The notes under the pieces: generated by a model | The model's database searches: none | The model's input: only the letters and a program-made list of their open reading frames with translations | Told to the model about the DNA's origin: nothing | Origin: a virus | Strand: one strand, 5' to 3' | IMG/VR virus record: IMGVR_UViG_3300033148_004880 | Coordinates: 1 to 48,970 of that record | DNA length: 48,970 nt | Program-made: the position numbers and the translations under genes | Shown here: positions 3,698-23,876 of the stretch, one piece after another | Layout of the letters: each line of letters opens with the position of its first letter | Numbering within the stretch: the first letter of the stretch is position 1

Positions 3698-3926
3698 CGA
3701 TCTTCCGTTCGATCCTCCTGAAACCTTCTTGCATCGTTTCTTTTACAGCCTTCATGCTGGTTTTAACTTCGCCGATTTCCCTATTCTGAGCGTCCAGTTT
3801 GTCAAATATCTTACCAGATGTCTCACTAGCCTTGTCTTCGGTTCGCGTGATGCGGCCGTTAAGAAACCTGAACGCTGTCGCTCCGATAGTAATCATGGCT
3901 GCAGCTCCTCCTATCTCCGTCCACAT
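3678..3926 (-). CDS. Small membrane-anchored coiled-coil protein, possible lysis accessory
   Basis: This protein of 82 residues has one hydrophobic segment at about residues 4-22, followed by a polar heptad-like helix (about 30-78) rich in Glu, Lys and Ile. The single N-terminal anchor plus coiled coil resembles small phage lysis or pinholin-type proteins. The location, a few hundred bases downstream of the holin and endolysin, fits. It overlaps terL by 20 bp. A regulatory role for the holin or a structural role are both possible; no signature residues decide it. Confidence 0.7.
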   Translation of the reverse strand: MWTEIGGAAAMITIGATAFRFLNGRITRTEDKASETSGKIFDKLDAQNREIGEVKTSMKAVKETMQEGFRRIERKIDDGNRC

Positions 3927-3938
3927 AACGGCCTCGAA

Positions 3939-4295
3939 TTAACTCCTGATCTTGCGAAGCAACATAGTTACGTCGACATCGCCACCAGAAGAGCCACTCA
4001 AACTCGGTCGAACATAACGTGGCAGATACGTACAAGGCTTGCCTCCAGCGGAGGTCAAGGTAAGCGCGGTGGTTCCATCTGGTGCTACCAACGAGAAATA
4101 GTTCGTCCCATCGTTCGAGCCTTGGAACGTAAGCGTCGCCGAGTTGAAAGTACCTGTCGCCTGAAAGATTACTTGGCTTACCCAATCAGCGATCTCGAAA
4201 GGCTCTCCAGTGTCCCCGCAGGTGATAGTCTCCCACAAGACCTTCACCAACTGCCGCCCGGTTATGTGCGTGATTGCACTACTGATTACTGACAT
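3939..4295 (-). CDS. Small beta-rich phage protein with GSNDGTNYF motif
   Basis: A 118-residue protein with alternating polar/hydrophobic strands. It contains FQGSNDGTNYFSL (about 57-69), a Thr-rich strand, then YVRPSLSG. This pattern recurs in short phage structural proteins with a jelly-roll-like look, whose function is not established. The ATG at 4295 has GGAGGTG just upstream, and that site directly abuts a copy of the dispersed 25-bp palindrome (4305-4329). It is in the lysis/packaging cluster but is more likely a virion or capsid-surface protein than a lysis protein. Confidence 0.75.
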   Translation of the reverse strand: MSVISSAITHITGRQLVKVLWETITCGDTGEPFEIADWVSQVIFQATGTFNSATLTFQGSNDGTNYFSLVAPDGTTALTLTSAGGKPCTYLPRYVRPSLSGSSGGDVDVTMLLRKIRS

Positions 4296-11290: not shown

Positions 11291-11300
11291 CACTAGGCCG

Positions 11301-11356
11301 TTTCCGTAGTATTACGATTGGCCATTCTTCGGAGTGGCCTCTCGCAATAAAACGGA
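11301..11356 (+). promoter_or_regulatory. 5' leader hairpin touching a ribosome binding site
   Basis: A tight stem GGCCATTC/GAGTGGCC with a TTCG loop (11320-11339) is enclosed by TTTCCGT (11301-11307) and ACGGAAA (11350-11356). The right outer arm runs into AAAGGAGGTG of the gene at 11371, so folding could restrict ribosome access. Confidence 0.55.
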
Positions 11357-11370
11357 AAGGAGGTGATAAG

Positions 11371-11592
11371 ATGGAAATAATAAACTTCAGAGGCGCAAAG
11401 GCGCCAGCTTCGTATCTGGGAGACGGTGTTTATGCTATCTTCGATGGCTTCGGCATCTGGCTCCACATCAACGATCACGAAGCGCCAACGGACAGAGTGT
11501 ACCTCGAGCCTAAGGTGTTTCGAGCACTGCTGGAGTTCGAGAAGGTCTCCAGAAGCGAGGAAGTGCTGGAACGTTGTCAACAAGAAACCTAG
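11371..11592 (+). CDS. Small early protein, unknown
   Basis: A 73-residue beta-rich protein (FRGAKAPASYLGDGVYAIFD) ending in a charged helix. An ideal AAAGGAGGTG site precedes the ATG, within a leader that can form a double hairpin (11301-11356). Many small phage proteins share the GDGVYAxFDG-like turn; function unknown. Confidence 0.75.
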   Translation: MEIINFRGAKAPASYLGDGVYAIFDGFGIWLHINDHEAPTDRVYLEPKVFRALLEFEKVSRSEEVLERCQQET

Positions 11593-17391: not shown

Positions 17392-17508
17392 GGAGAACCG
17401 TTATGAAAGGAGGTGAGCAATCAGAAGGCTAAAGGAATCCTGTATAAAAGCAGGAACAGAGGCAAGTGACAAATTACTATTAACACTAAAAATTAAGGAG
17501 AACTAACT

Positions 17509-17910
17509 ATGGGATCTTTGTTAGACATTGGCGAGGGCGTCGATGGCGCTCCCGAGCCAAAAGCGGTTCCAGCAGACGAGGAGTACAAGCTTAGGATTAT
17601 CGCCGTGACTCACGACATGGACAAGAACCAACATCCTTACCTTCTACCTCGTTTCGATATCGTAGACCAGCCGCTTTCAAAGGACTTCACGAAGTTCATT
17701 GGACTGCAGCACGACGATATGAGTGAGAAGGAACGCGTAAGGGCTCGATCAAGCCTGCGGGTCTTCCTCGAGTGCTTTGGCCTTCCAACTTCGGGCCAGC
17801 TCGACGTAGAAGACATGGTCGGCAAGACCGGATGGGCTATTCTTGGCCTTGAGGACAACAAGCAATACGGTGAGCAGAATTACGTGAAGAAGTTTATAGC
17901 TCCCAAATAA
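17509..17910 (+). CDS. DUF669-like, probable single-strand DNA-binding partner
   Basis: A 133-residue protein. It opens with a short acidic stretch (DIGEGVDGAPEPK) followed by strands (EYKLRIIAVTHDMDKN, YLLPRFDIVD), helix SLRVFLECFGLP and GKTGWAILGLEDN, ending QNYVKKFIAPK. This is the shape of DUF669-type phage proteins that accompany Sak4 ATPases and behave like SSBs. Assignment rests on pattern and neighbourhood. AAGGAG lies 9 bp before the ATG. Confidence 0.75.
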   Translation: MGSLLDIGEGVDGAPEPKAVPADEEYKLRIIAVTHDMDKNQHPYLLPRFDIVDQPLSKDFTKFIGLQHDDMSEKERVRARSSLRVFLECFGLPTSGQLDVEDMVGKTGWAILGLEDNKQYGEQNYVKKFIAPK

Positions 17911-17918
17911 ACAGGAAA

Positions 17919-18150
17919 TCAGGCCTCCGACCGGGAGGTGGATGAAAGGAGCCACAACGATGGGAGCCGCGCGGCCCGACACTACGGAATACGGGAACGT
18001 CCCATTTTAGTTGGAGGCCTGAGATCACAAGTAGCAGAACGAGTGGGCGGCCAGGTGCTCCTAAATGGCTAGTCGCTACCAAACCTTATTTAAGAGGGAT
18101 GGAGGTCTAGAGGAGTGAATATTGCGACCGGTCTCCCTACCGCCGCCCAC
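17919..18150 (+). ncRNA. Candidate structured RNA, upstream domain
   Basis: No gene in this segment. TCAGGCCTCC (17919-17928) is perfectly complementary to GGAGGCCTGA (18013-18022) and, in competition, its CCTCC to GGAGG (17934-17938). GGGA-ACG-TCCC (17994-18004) followed by ATTTTAG looks like a small terminator. GTGGGCGGC (18043-18051) matches GCCGCCCAC (18142-18150) exactly. Several helices exclude each other, as in attenuators or riboswitch-like elements. Transcription is inferred from the surrounding operon. Confidence 0.55.
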
Positions 18151-18173
18151 TTCGTTCATTTTATGAACATAGT
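18149..18173. repeat. Dispersed 25-bp palindrome, copy 6
   Basis: Exact arms around TTTTA; extended outward by CCC and GGG (18146-18176). The CCCAC arm also pairs with 18043-18047. Confidence 0.9.
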
Positions 18174-18323
18174 GGGTAAGGAAGCCAGTTTTGGACTTCG
18201 GCTGGGGTCAAGGTGGCGAGGGCCAGACGGGAACGTAACAGTACCGTGATACACGAAAGTGCGCTTGGCCGAATCGAATTCCTGAGAGAGCCTCTCGCCA
18301 GGCTAATCTCTTGCCTTACCCAC
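18172..18323 (+). ncRNA. Candidate structured RNA, downstream domain
   Basis: A closing stem of 10 perfect pairs, GTGGGTAAGG (18172-18181) with CCTTACCCAC (18314-18323). Nested inside are TGGCGAG (18214-18220) with CTCGCCA (18294-18300), GGCCA (18221-18225) with TGGCC (18266-18270) and a CAC-GAAA-GTG hairpin (18252-18261). The stems are nested, as in a folded RNA of about 150 nt. Both ends overlap palindrome copies. No resemblance to tRNA, tmRNA or RNase P that I can defend. Confidence 0.55.
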
Positions 18324-18346
18324 TTCATTCATTTTATGAACAAAGA
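18322..18346. repeat. Dispersed 25-bp palindrome, copy 7
   Basis: Arms ACTTCATTCA and TGAACAAAGA around TTTTA, directly before ATGGAGGG, the ribosome binding site of the 18361 gene. Confidence 0.85.
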
Positions 18347-18360
18347 TGGAGGGACCTCGA

Positions 18361-18600
18361 ATGGAAACTGAAAAACCTTACCGGCCTCGTCTTTCTATCG
18401 AAATCACAGAGGAACAGAACGCAGACCTCAGGGCTTTAATCCCTTGGGGAGTCAAGAACGCTTTGTTCTCAATTATCATTGACGACGTGATCAAGAAGCT
18501 CAAGACACATGGAACGATGTTCATTAGCGTTGTGTTACAGCGGAAGATCGAACTCGATGACTATGTGGAATTCGAGGTTAAAGAAAATGGCCACGATTGA
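18361..18600 (+). CDS. Small possible ribbon-helix-helix protein
   Basis: A 79-residue protein. RLSIEITEEQNADLRALIPWGVKN reads as a strand plus helix followed by a second helix (FSIIIDDVIKKLKTHG), the size and order of small phage ribbon-helix-helix-like proteins. The ATG at 18361 is used because GGAGGG lies 9 bp upstream; ATG 18346 would overlap the palindrome. A possible regulator acting on its own upstream region. Confidence 0.75.
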   Translation: METEKPYRPRLSIEITEEQNADLRALIPWGVKNALFSIIIDDVIKKLKTHGTMFISVVLQRKIELDDYVEFEVKENGHD

Positions 18601-18802
18601 CAATCTAGGTCTGTCGGTCTCCGAAATGACCGACGAACAGCTCCTTGAGCGCTTGAAAGAAATGCGACACTCACGACGCACACACAAGGCTCCTATCAAG
18701 AGAGCTACAAAGGCCTCAAAACCAGCAGAGCTAAGGGTCAGCAGCCTCACGGGAGACCAGGCACAGAACCTGATAGCTGAACTGGAGGAGATGATGAAAT
18801 GA
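18587..18802 (+). CDS. Small basic protein, unknown
   Basis: A 71-residue protein (MATIDNLGLSVSEMTDEQLL) with a basic middle (RHSRRTHKAPIKRATKASK) and an acidic terminal helix. Overlaps the previous gene by 14 bp and the next by 4. The EMTDEQLLERLKEMR helix recurs in small phage proteins; function unknown. Confidence 0.7.
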   Translation: MATIDNLGLSVSEMTDEQLLERLKEMRHSRRTHKAPIKRATKASKPAELRVSSLTGDQAQNLIAELEEMMK

Positions 18803-19014
18803 AGGTTTACTGCAAGAAGTGCAAATACATCCTCGGACCTCCTCACATGAAGAAGGACGAGTCCTTGTGTTGCGCCACGGAAACACCAATGACACTTGAT
18901 GAATCTGACTGGTATGAAGAAAAACTTATGATCCTTGCTGAAAACAGGGTTTTATGTTCTCAAAGAAACATGCTTAACAACTGTGTATATTATGAGGAGC
19001 AAGATGAGAGTTGA
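18799..19014 (+). CDS. Cysteine-rich small protein
   Basis: A 71-residue protein with CKKC at 5-8, then CC (24-25), and later single cysteines. The first knuckle suggests a zinc ribbon, perhaps using CC as second pair. Overlaps both neighbours. Function unknown. Confidence 0.7.
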   Translation: MKVYCKKCKYILGPPHMKKDESLCCATETPMTLDESDWYEEKLMILAENRVLCSQRNMLNNCVYYEEQDES

Positions 19015-20338
19015 AATTGTAAACATCGATCGCATAACCGTCGCCGATCGACATCGAAAAGACTTAGGAGACCTACATGAACTCGCACGATCAATCAAAG
19101 AAAAAGGGCTTATCCAACCGATCGCGGTCGAAGACACCAGGGACGGAACGTACGCTCTCCTCGCGGGAGGTCGCCGCCTTGAGGCGTGCCGTTTGGCAGA
19201 GATCAGTACAGTCCCTGTTAGAGTCTACGAACCTGGTCTTTCCGACCTGGAACGAAAATCGATTGAACTCGAGGAAAATATTAGGCGCAAGGACCTTGCT
19301 TACCAGGAGGAGGTCAACCTTAAGAGAGATATTCATAATCTCCAAGTTCAGATACAAGGCAAGAAGTATGGTGGCGACCGCACCGACCTCGAGCATGCGC
19401 TGGTTAGTGAAGGTCACTCTATTCGAGATACTGCAGACCTTCTGGGCGAGGCTGTCGGCACCACTTCACAAGACATCAAACTTGCTGAGGCGATGGCGCA
19501 GATGCCTGAGCTCGGCTTGGATAAATGTAAGAACAAGTCGGAGGCATTAAAGCTGCTTAACCGCGTTGAGGAAGTCGCTATCCGTGCTGAACTCGCCTCG
19601 CGGATGGTAGCTGCCACGAAGCGCAAAGACACCAAGCTCGCCGATCTTTATCTAGTTGGAGACTTTTTTGACTTAGTTCAGAAGGTGCCTTCTGGTGTTA
19701 TGGACATCGTGGAAGTTGATCCACCTTACGGTATTGACTTGCCATCCATCAAGGACAACGTCGAGATGAGGCTTGACACTAGCTACACGGAGATTCCCGA
19801 GACGGAATATGTGTCGTTCTTGGAGCGTGTCATCGAAGAGTGTTGGCGGATAATGAACGACCACTCGTGGTTGATCTTCTGGTTCGGGCCTGAGCCGTGG
19901 TTCGAAGTGGTATTTACTATCATCCACCGTCAAGGCTTCAACGTACGCCGCATGCCCGGCATTTGGCTCAAGTCCGGCGTCGGTGGTCAAACTCGCCAGC
20001 CCGATGTTCATCTCGGTAGCGTCTACGAAATGTTTTTCTATGCTTACAAAGGCGACGCAACGATCAATATCAACAAACGTGGCAGATCGAACGCGTTCGA
20101 ATATTCCGTGGTTCCTCCACAATACAAGATTCATAACACGGAACGACCGATTCCATTAATGGAGGATATCTTGTCTACTTTTGCTTATGAGGGCGCACGA
20201 CTTTACGTGCCCTTTTGTGGAAGCGGTAACACGCTTCGTGCAGGATTGAACCTTAACATGTCGCCGATTGGATGCGACATTGGACAGGAGTACAAGGACG
20301 CCTATGTACTTCGGTTGGCAGAGGAGGGGCTGGTATGA
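19004..20338 (+). CDS. ParB/Srx-like domain fused to N6/N4-type DNA methyltransferase
   Basis: A 444-residue protein starting at ATG 19004 behind GAGGAG. Residues 1-110: ParB-like nuclease fold with LAGGRRLEACR (53-63) and ENIRRKDLAYQEE (91-103). Residues 139-160: helix-turn-helix-like segment. C-terminal half: methyltransferase with catalytic DPPYGID (239-245) before the SAM-binding VPFCGSGNT (402-410), the beta-class order. It probably methylates adenine or N4-cytosine at a specific site, protecting phage DNA or marking it. No partner restriction enzyme is present. Such fusions are known in phages; the target is unknown. Confidence 0.88.
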   Translation: MRVEIVNIDRITVADRHRKDLGDLHELARSIKEKGLIQPIAVEDTRDGTYALLAGGRRLEACRLAEISTVPVRVYEPGLSDLERKSIELEENIRRKDLAYQEEVNLKRDIHNLQVQIQGKKYGGDRTDLEHALVSEGHSIRDTADLLGEAVGTTSQDIKLAEAMAQMPELGLDKCKNKSEALKLLNRVEEVAIRAELASRMVAATKRKDTKLADLYLVGDFFDLVQKVPSGVMDIVEVDPPYGIDLPSIKDNVEMRLDTSYTEIPETEYVSFLERVIEECWRIMNDHSWLIFWFGPEPWFEVVFTIIHRQGFNVRRMPGIWLKSGVGGQTRQPDVHLGSVYEMFFYAYKGDATININKRGRSNAFEYSVVPPQYKIHNTERPIPLMEDILSTFAYEGARLYVPFCGSGNTLRAGLNLNMSPIGCDIGQEYKDAYVLRLAEEGLV

Positions 20339-20811: not shown

Positions 20812-21417
20812 ATGAAACCTTGGGACGAATATTTTCTAGGCATCTGCAATCAGGTTGCAGCAAACTCTAAATGTCTGTCACAACGACGCGGCGCGATACT
20901 CGTTCGTGATCGTATCATCATTGCTACAGGCTACAACGGGCCGCCAAGAGGTTTTCGTAGGTGTTCGGACCGTTGGCTGGATTCTTTAGATCCTCTATAC
21001 AACGAGGCAGAAGCACTGCCAAAAGGCAAGATTGCATCGCCCGTCACCTGCCCTCGTCACGCTCTCGGCTTCAAGTCTGGTGAACGCCTTGACCTCTGTC
21101 CTGCCGTACATGCCGAGGTCAATTGCTTAGCTGCTGCAGCCAGGGTGGGAGTGAACGTTCACCATGCTATTATGTACATGAACTGTCAGATTCCTTGCAA
21201 GTGGTGCATGGGCCTTATCATCAACGCTGGCATCGGTACTCTCGTAGTGAGTTCGCTTGAACCCTACGACAAGCTAACGTTGACCTTGGTAAGGGAAACC
21301 AGTGGAAGCCTGACCGTAAGAGATTACGATGGAAACTTCCTGCTCAATCTTAGCACTCCCTTACATCCGGCCGCACATCCACGATACCCAACGACGCATG
21401 AAGGAGACATAGAATGA
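20812..21417 (+). CDS. dCMP deaminase-like zinc enzyme
   Basis: A 201-residue protein. Zinc and catalytic motif HAEVN (H100, E102) and PCKWC (C129, C132), with GYNGPPRGF (40-48) in the usual upstream position. This is the dCMP/ComE deaminase family, making dUMP for dTMP synthesis. An insert (about 50-95) holds extra Cys/His (C51, C80, H83, C96) and may bind a second metal. The C-terminal about 40 residues go beyond the core fold. AAAGGAG upstream. Overlaps the polymerase gene by 4 bp, linking dU metabolism with a polymerase carrying a uracil glycosylase domain. Confidence 0.85.
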   Translation: MKPWDEYFLGICNQVAANSKCLSQRRGAILVRDRIIIATGYNGPPRGFRRCSDRWLDSLDPLYNEAEALPKGKIASPVTCPRHALGFKSGERLDLCPAVHAEVNCLAAAARVGVNVHHAIMYMNCQIPCKWCMGLIINAGIGTLVVSSLEPYDKLTLTLVRETSGSLTVRDYDGNFLLNLSTPLHPAAHPRYPTTHEGDIE

Positions 21418-23876
21418 TCCGAAAGCCTGAAAACGTGCGGACGTGGGTAGGTCCTGCTGGCAGCCTCGATGCAAAGATCGCCATCGTCGGTGAACAGCCC
21501 GGCAAGCAGGAGATCTTCCACCGTCCACTGCCAACGCCATTCGTCGGGCCAGCGGGACGAGAACTTGACAAGTGCCTAGACTCAGCCAAGATCCCACGGC
21601 GGTCATGCTACTTAACAAACGTGATCAAGGATCTCGACCACCCACTGCACTACTATATGAATATCTCGGGGAGGAGCCCTGTCATTACTGAGGCAGGGCA
21701 AGTGTACATCCAGATGCTAAAGGAGGAGCTGACAGAATGCAAGTCGAATGTGGTAGTGGCTACGGGGAACATTCCACTGTTCGCCTTGTGCAATCGGACG
21801 GGAATAACGAAATGGAGAGGATCGGTGCTGGAGTCTACTTTAATTCCTGGCCTCAAAGTCGTGCCGACGTTACACCCTGCTACTATCATTCCTCCGAAGA
21901 ATGTATACTTAAACAAGAATCTCATCACCCTCGACTTGCAGCGAGCCAAGGAAGAATCTGCCTACCCTGAAATCCGTCGCAAGGAACGCAAGCTACGCAT
22001 CCGCCCGTCGTTTGGTGATGCTATGTATTTCCTTGAACGATGCCTTCAGGTAAGTAAGAAAGGAGGAATAATTGACTATGACATCGAGATTTACAATGAG
22101 GAGGTGTCTTGCATTAGTTTTGCAATCGGTCCTGCGGAAGCTATGTCGATTCCGCTCGTGGACGCATCAGGAGATTACTTCTCCATCGAGCAAGAGGCTG
22201 ATATTTGGAGAGCCATCGCTGTTCTACTCGAGGATAGAAACCTATGGAAACGAGGTCAGAACATTGCATTTGATTCCCACTTTCTCCTTCGTAGACCTGG
22301 AATCAAGGTGCACTCCCTCCACGACACAATGGTCGCACAAAAGACGTTGTTTCCTGATTATCCTATGGGACTTGACTTCATTTGCACGATGTATACTGAT
22401 ATACCGCACTACAAAAATGAAGGAAAAAAGTGGTTCAAATCTGGCGGTGCATGGGAAACGTTATGGCAGTATAATGCTACTGACTCCATCGTCTGTGCGG
22501 AAGCTCATCCTAAACAAGTACACGACCTTGAACGACAAGGTAACTTGGCAACTTACGAGCGTCAAAGAAAGATCATCGAGCCATTGGTCTACATGATGGA
22601 ACGTGGCATTCGCGTGGATATCGAGGGAATGAAGAAACTGGGAGAAGAATACGAAAGAAAAATCGAAACAGCGACGGAAGAACTTAGAAGAATTGTAGGT
22701 TTCGACATCAACCCAAATTCACCAAAACAACTTGCAAACTATTTCTACGGTACGAGAGGCCTTCCTGCTTACCGCAAGCGGGGTGGTGGAGTTACGACTG
22801 ATAATGACGCGCTTAAGCGACTTGCTAGAAAAGGAGTTCGCGAGGCCTCCCTTATTGGGGAGATCAGGAAATATACAAAAGCTAGAGGAAATTATCTCAA
22901 TATTGAAAAGGTCGACCGAGATGCTAGAATCCGCTGCAGCTATAATCCAGCCGGCACTCGATTCTCAAGAATCTCATCGTCTAAGAACATCTTCGGAACA
23001 GGAATGAACATGCAGAACTGGCCTCATGATCTGCTACGTTTCCTGTTAGCCGACGAAGGCTATGTACTTTACACTGTTGACCTCTCCCAGGCTGAGAATC
23101 GCATCGTAGCATATGTCGGGAACGTTACTCCAATGATCGAGGCGTTCGAGGCTGGAAAGGATGTGCATCGACTTACTGCGTCATTGCTTCTGGGCAAGCC
23201 AGTAGACGAGATCAGCGACGTGGACGGGTCCTCGCCACTTGGCAATGGAGAACAATCGGAACGCTACTGGGGCAAGAAGGCTAACCACGAACTCAACTAT
23301 GATCTCGGCTACAAGAGGTTTTCCTTACAGTTCGAACTGCCGGAAGCTCAAGGCAAGTGGCTTGTCGAACGCTACCACCTTGTTTATCCTGGCGTTCGAC
23401 AGAACTACCACGCAATGGTGAAAGCCCAACTAGCCAAGAACCGTACGATCACGAACCTCATGGGACGCAAGACGCTGTTCCTCGACGAGTGGGGAGACAA
23501 AACCTGGAAGGCAGGGTACTCCTGCATACCTCAAGGCACGGTTGGTGACGTGATCAACGAGCGAGGACTGAATTACATCTATTATGACCAAACGAGATTC
23601 AAGTCCGTCGAGTTGCTGACCCAAGTACACGACTCAATTACCTTCCAGATTCCACTGGCCACCCGATGGCAGGAGCATGCCTACATGCTCGATCGGATTA
23701 AGCACTCACTCGAAACTCCACTCGTGTGGAACGAGCGCGAGTTTGTAATACCTGTTGATATCGTGATGGGACTTAACTTCCGCAAGGAGGAGGGAGTTAA
23801 GATTAAGACCGTCAACGCAAGAACATTGGAGGAGGCTTATGACAAGCTTAGTATCAAGACTCGCGAAAGCGGTTAG
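21414..23876 (+). CDS. Uracil-DNA glycosylase / 3'-5' exonuclease / family A DNA polymerase fusion
   Basis: An 820-residue protein. Residues 1-185: family 4-like uracil-DNA glycosylase with VGEQPG (25-30), PFVGPAG (42-48) and PTLHPA (151-156). Residues about 215-370: DEDDy exonuclease with D223/E225, N283/D287 and Y353-D357. Residues about 380-800: family A polymerase with motif A D556 (TVDLSQAENR), motif B R617, K621 and Y629 (GKKANHELNYDLGY) and motif C H739/D740 (QVHDS). There is no 5'-3' exonuclease. It is the replicative polymerase; the glycosylase may excise or sense uracil ahead of synthesis. ATGA coupling with the deaminase gene. Confidence 0.92.
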   Translation: MIRKPENVRTWVGPAGSLDAKIAIVGEQPGKQEIFHRPLPTPFVGPAGRELDKCLDSAKIPRRSCYLTNVIKDLDHPLHYYMNISGRSPVITEAGQVYIQMLKEELTECKSNVVVATGNIPLFALCNRTGITKWRGSVLESTLIPGLKVVPTLHPATIIPPKNVYLNKNLITLDLQRAKEESAYPEIRRKERKLRIRPSFGDAMYFLERCLQVSKKGGIIDYDIEIYNEEVSCISFAIGPAEAMSIPLVDASGDYFSIEQEADIWRAIAVLLEDRNLWKRGQNIAFDSHFLLRRPGIKVHSLHDTMVAQKTLFPDYPMGLDFICTMYTDIPHYKNEGKKWFKSGGAWETLWQYNATDSIVCAEAHPKQVHDLERQGNLATYERQRKIIEPLVYMMERGIRVDIEGMKKLGEEYERKIETATEELRRIVGFDINPNSPKQLANYFYGTRGLPAYRKRGGGVTTDNDALKRLARKGVREASLIGEIRKYTKARGNYLNIEKVDRDARIRCSYNPAGTRFSRISSSKNIFGTGMNMQNWPHDLLRFLLADEGYVLYTVDLSQAENRIVAYVGNVTPMIEAFEAGKDVHRLTASLLLGKPVDEISDVDGSSPLGNGEQSERYWGKKANHELNYDLGYKRFSLQFELPEAQGKWLVERYHLVYPGVRQNYHAMVKAQLAKNRTITNLMGRKTLFLDEWGDKTWKAGYSCIPQGTVGDVINERGLNYIYYDQTRFKSVELLTQVHDSITFQIPLATRWQEHAYMLDRIKHSLETPLVWNEREFVIPVDIVMGLNFRKEEGVKIKTVNARTLEEAYDKLSIKTRESG

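Follow-up and report, generated by a model that had tools for sequence, protein, structure and literature searches.

A hypervariable block of predicted RNA structure behind an SSB-like gene in a group of tailed phages

What role might a 435-nt non-coding block with extensive predicted RNA structure have between two phage genes, and is anything about it kept in related phages? The window analysed here is a whole 48,970-base virus record representing a tailed phage. Among named phages, Desulfofustis phage LS06-2018-MD01 is the closest to it, with 54% identity in Sak4 and 44% in the capsid. The block (17911-18345) sits between the genes p133 and p84, both of which lie on the same strand. A Sak4-type recombinase gene precedes p133 in the window phage, and Sak4 adjoins a p133-type gene in essentially all relatives, an ssb neighbour being usual for sak4 genes (PMC5928155). 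The structure model of p133 displays an OB fold (pLDDT 92.6), and its top PDB fold match is the ssDNA-binding protein PrgE (E 9e-6), with RPA and the bacterial SsbB matching much more weakly. Because it follows Sak4, is modelled as an OB fold and matches PrgE best, p133 is most likely an SSB. The p84 family is conserved (97 matches), and its model has an extended N-terminal stretch followed by helices at 22-31 and 37-55, a layout that fits a ribbon-helix-helix (RHH) regulator; since a PDB fold search with this model returned no match, p84 is treated here as a putative member of that class. PDB sequence profiles gave nothing for either p133 or p84. Further along, the window encodes an N6/N4 DNA methylase with a fused ParB N-terminal domain (18935-20338), which is conserved across the group, and a family A DNA polymerase whose N-terminus is fused to a uracil-DNA-glycosylase-like domain (21414-23876).

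Three predicted modules and a palindromic repeat

The block resolves end to end into three modules, E1, E2 and E3, each closed by a helix of 11-13 bp (Table 1). Its predicted fold has a free energy of -163.2 kcal/mol, whereas 100 shuffles average -140.5 and none of them is as good (z -3.87), and the closing helices have predicted pair probabilities of 0.88-1.0 (0.99-1.0 over 10 bp in E1, 0.93-0.95 in E2 and 0.88-0.95 in E3). Taken singly, E1 folds at -44.3 kcal/mol, a value matched or bettered by 1 of 300 shuffles (z -3.1), E2 attains a z of -2.6 (2 of 300 as good) and E3 one of -2.4. As RNA, the palindromes flanking E3 are predicted to pair mutually, so that the closing helix of E3 would lengthen to about 22 bp with small loops as interruptions, and the interval comprising E3 and the palindromes (18144-18350) reaches a z of -3.9 with 0 of 200 shuffles as good. 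Helices scoring at least 25 within 200 nt number 31 in the 49-kb window and three in the 435-nt block. In a z-scan along the DNA in steps of 110-nt size, the block does not rank among the top 25, since its helices enclose about 100 nt or more; its significance therefore rests on the whole-block shuffles, the per-module shuffles and the helix count.

Table 1. Coordinates of the features discussed; positions are those of the window unless a relative's locus (L number) is given
Feature	Position	Strand	Remarks
p133, SSB-like OB-fold protein	17509..17910	+	directly 3' of Sak4; structure model and fold match
Module E1	17917..18024	+	closing helix 17919-17931 / 18010-18022, 13 bp
Module E2	18041..18152	+	closing helix 18041-18051 / 18142-18152, 11 bp
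Palindromic repeat copy 1	18149..18173	.	ACTTCGTTCATTTTATGAACATAGT; overlaps E2 end and E3 start
Module E3	18171..18324	+	closing helix 18171-18181 / 18314-18324, 11 bp
Palindromic repeat copy 2	18322..18346	.	ACTTCATTCATTTTATGAACAAAGA; just 5' of p84
p84, small beta-alpha-alpha protein	18346..18600	+	layout like ribbon-helix-helix regulators; conserved family, structure model
Palindrome sites	4310, 6523, 8174, 10378, 12346, 18154, 18327, 25754, 33455, 39645, 45250		consensus ACTTCGTTCATWWWATGAACATAGT; mostly intergenic
Unannotated tRNA-Leu-like RNAs	L028:4557-4712, L029:7326-7475, L035:3318-3532, L052:289-397, L058:3220-3327, L060:3426-3638, L086:5245-5448, L103:2210-2331, L140:1492-1675, L143:2029-2189, L168:2347-2571		108-225 nt; no normal anticodon arm

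A preliminary description of this DNA had taken the block for a candidate non-coding structured RNA of a novel kind, and at the level of prediction this is confirmed: the block beats 100 of 100 shuffles, Rfam at the gathering threshold gives no match in the window, and a permissive Rfam search yields chance matches only (best sub-threshold E 0.86). The complementary pairs listed in that description are all exact in the sequence. Of the helices that it nested within E3, 18221-18225/18266-18270 is partly borne out with a probability of about 0.39, the other (18214-18220/18294-18300) receiving only 0.06. An unrecognised gene had been named as the observation that would speak against an RNA; the small ORFs of the block lack a meaningful family match (best E 0.02), and a coding reading was rejected. 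The noted lack of tRNA and tmRNA features also holds, in that ARAGORN finds neither in the window. A search of the block for an acceptor stem with an inward T arm (TTCRANY loop) was likewise without a match, and E1-E3 were rejected as degenerate tRNAs on account of an absent T or D arm.

The two palindrome copies, which had been described as marking the junctions of the block, are real and share 93% identity over 27 nt. They are not specific to the block, being members of a genome-wide repeat: the palindrome of about 25 bp gives 13 hits in the window at up to 2 mismatches, as against 0.12 expected by chance, and about 11 sites are listed in Table 1. It also precedes the orthologous p84 gene in two relatives (L011 and L012). 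The set looks like the operators of a phage regulator, perhaps p84 itself. In other phages of the group, AT-rich palindromes of a different kind adjoin the p84 gene or the RNA module.

Position, strand and sequence turnover in relatives

Relatives were gathered via Sak4 and the ParB-methylase, the SSB gene was located in each, and the interval following it was compared. Of 89 independent relatives, 54 have a closing helix that scores at least 25 and begins 2-43 nt past the stop codon of SSB, as against 2.9% of random sites; these tests were devised after the pattern had been seen in about 55 intervals, which the set of 89 includes, and hence do not constitute a fully independent replication. 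Helices of the same class follow Sak4 in 0 of 59 cases and the ParB-methylase in 2 of 41. The span closed by the post-SSB helices varies from 25 to 205 nt. Further, these helices contain 46 G-U as against 7 A-C oppositions, compared with 110:126 for random helices of the same loci (p = 4e-8), with G-T and A-C mismatches scored alike in the helix search; this G-U excess in the relatives therefore marks the sense strand as the one that folds as RNA.

Additional support comes from homologous modules. In the L092/L121 pair, 2+6 two-sided compensatory changes are seen, and the two modules lie on opposite sides of a palindrome, an arrangement also seen for E2 and E3 in the window. Compensatory changes are also found in L052-L058 (2), L060/L086/L144 (3, with some pairs broken) and L100-L102 (1); in these groups and in L053/L055/L144 a few pairs are broken, and the samples are small. 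The evidence for RNA comes from the same position in relatives, by way of the kept helix site, the G-U bias and the covariation of homologous modules, and not from E1-E3 themselves. Elsewhere in the window, a second structured RNA (11297-11360) lies just 5' of the Shine-Dalgarno sequence of the gene at 11371; its version in L030 shows a compensatory CGA..TCG to CAG..CTG change with a re-paired inner hairpin.

The relatives keep the position and the RNA structure behind SSB while the sequence turns over. No match to the region 17500-18800 was obtained by blastn against phages, the matches of E1-E3 in about 170 fetched loci did not rise above chance (E 1.3 or worse), and exact 21-22-mers from E1 and E3 are absent from IMG/VR. 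The closest relative with the region (L011), whose flanking genes are about 86-88% identical, has an unrelated single 12-bp hairpin in 70 nt; another (L012) has one 115-nt module at the site, and L010/L027 has an HNH endonuclease ORF there instead of an RNA module. Many relatives have a plain short hairpin only, and in most the Shine-Dalgarno sequence and the next ORF come directly after the helix. No conserved core is discernible among the relatives' modules, and their kinship across phages is positional rather than sequence-based. The HNH endonuclease ORF of L027 (about 3746-4070), which is the first one past the SSB-like gene, matches HNH_3 with an E of 1.5e-6.

In several relatives (L028, L029, L064, L091, L103, L116, L164, L168) the RNA behind SSB is tRNA-Leu-like, and similar RNAs occur at other gene junctions (L035, L047, L052, L058, L060, L086). 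They combine an acceptor stem, a D arm (TGGCGGAAT..GGTAGACGC) and a T arm such as GCAGGTTCGAATCCTGC with an expanded or replaced anticodon side or an insertion in the D-loop. The L052 and L058 versions, whose upstream setting is about 90% identical, have an essentially identical scaffold and an unrelated core of about 54 nt between the D and T arms; the same pattern of a kept scaffold and a hypervariable core recurs in L060 and L086. ARAGORN called no tRNA in 60 of the relatives' loci, and Rfam at gathering found none in 15, a permissive search giving weak tRNA/tmRNA matches. The window itself contains no tRNA-Leu-like RNA. L047, which is closely related to the window phage, has two, at about 213-345 and 628-820, in two nearby gene junctions; their acceptor stems match (GGACCGAG..CTCGGTCC), and CCA is encoded. 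In the openly accessible literature, no description of the locus or of variable-core tRNA-like phage RNAs was found.

Possible roles of the element

We tentatively favour the reading that the block is a hypervariable cassette of RNA domains in an operon mRNA, which primarily serves as a processing or 3'-end-protection element for the SSB message. Three independent RNA domains would be transcribed as part of the recombination/replication operon, between its SSB-like and RHH-like genes, the array filling a site where this group of phages usually has some folded RNA. Beginning 8 nt past the SSB stop, the folded domains could block 3'-to-5' exonucleases, and/or their duplexes could be offered to a host endonuclease, namely RNase III or possibly, for the tRNA-like versions, RNase P. 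The SSB message would thereby gain a stable 3' structure, and its expression would be separated from that of the downstream genes. Such a site would accept and swap unrelated folded modules, and complete turnover of sequence with a kept position and strand would arise because modules are exchanged as cassettes. Transcription, processing and the effect on SSB expression are what we infer from this arrangement. The trait common to all versions, i.e., location on the coding strand between the SSB stop and the next gene, favours such an element acting in cis, as do the plain hairpins of many relatives, the next ORF with its Shine-Dalgarno sequence directly behind the helix in most of them, and the absence of a convincing promoter or intrinsic terminator from the block. 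However, a simple hairpin would be enough for 3'-end protection, a need which the 435-nt three-module array and the variable-core tRNA-like scaffolds exceed, and the helices that close E1 and E2, at 11-13 bp, fall short of a good RNase III substrate in length. Moreover, complete replacement between close relatives would likewise be expected of an RNA caught in an arms race.

The last point leads to a possible but more doubtful explanation, under which the modules are excised as trans-acting accessory RNAs that serve as decoys, mimics or inhibitors of a host factor or defence, the site being a hot spot with arms-race turnover. This would accommodate the large size of the window array, the unrelated modules held at one site by otherwise similar phages, and the HNH endonuclease ORF in L027. 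It also fits the tRNA-Leu-like RNAs, here and at other sites, whose acceptor, D and T arms are intact and whose anticodon region is replaced, and particularly the L052/L058 and L060/L086 pairs, which keep the scaffold and differ in the core. Against it stand the many relatives with only a short hairpin and the results for the window phage, where no target was found, E1-E3 have no match of at least 12 nt elsewhere in the phage in sense or antisense, and the block has no convincing promoter or intrinsic terminator. It is rather unlikely that the group maintains a gene-junction site for exchangeable RNAs, a hitherto undescribed class of tRNA-Leu-derived variable-core scaffolds included, and that these RNAs target host factors in trans, for instance as decoys for tRNA-directed defences or for translation or RNase components, with E1-E3 as one state of that site. 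Roles in cis and in trans may both be true.

A transcription terminator or attenuator, whose helices cause partial termination after ssb, is improbable: a hairpin directly behind ssb and the T-rich tails of a few relatives (L053, L072) agree with it, but the + strand of the block is devoid of a terminator-like site (a GC hairpin with a T-run), most relatives have no T-run after the helix and proceed directly to the Shine-Dalgarno sequence and the next gene, and helices closing about 100-190 nt are unlike intrinsic terminators. There is equally little to recommend a DNA element, either hairpins extruded from ssDNA as a replication or recombination signal next to Sak4/SSB or a palindrome-bounded site of cassette recombination. 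Such an element would account for the palindromes that flank E3 and adjoin modules in relatives, and the neighbouring genes do act on ssDNA; nevertheless, the 46:7 asymmetry described above requires a transcribed strand, and the palindrome is present at many places without a module. Finally, the riboswitch or RNA switch of mutually exclusive helices put forward in the preliminary description is most improbable, since the short alternative complements, which do exist, attain pair probabilities of 0.00-0.05 and are negligible in the ensemble beside the 0.88-1.0 of the closing helices, with neither an Rfam match nor a core conserved among relatives.

Comparison with known systems and implications

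The early genes of phage T7 are separated by RNase III processing sites, which resemble the element favoured here in being stem-loops between operon genes that are set by position rather than sequence and furnish protective 3' structures. As against the approximately 20-bp duplex of a T7-type site, E1 offers 13 bp, E2 11 bp, and E3 with the palindromes about 22 bp with interruptions. Unlike those sites, the element can reach 435 nt in three modules, has its fixed place behind SSB, and gives way in relatives to tRNA-like or multi-stem RNAs; cleavage is here a proposal. The REP and other intercistronic hairpins of bacterial operons stabilise their messages and are comparable in providing differential stability within a polycistronic mRNA, whereas the present element is not a dispersed repeat and its sequence is private to each phage. 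Phage tRNAs and tmRNA share with the relatives' versions the acceptor stem, the Leu-type D arm, the T arm and sometimes an encoded CCA (L028, L047), but the window modules are without a T or D arm, and in the relatives' versions the anticodon arm is not a normal one or the D loop contains insertions. The VIPR vrRNAs are similarly phage-encoded non-coding RNAs of variable content, for which tandem YNNGG repeats, at least 9 by the criterion used, are required (PMC13142463); YNNGG runs of even six or more units are absent from the window and from every fetched locus.

Structured RNAs of phages are usually found through sequence conservation, an approach blind to a locus of which only position and strand are kept. 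If the element acts in cis, then the plain hairpin, the tRNA-like RNA and the three-module array would form a natural series performing one job. If it acts in trans, the site would be worth searching for RNA-based counter-defence, and the variable-core tRNA-like RNAs would represent a new class of phage RNA overlooked by standard annotation.
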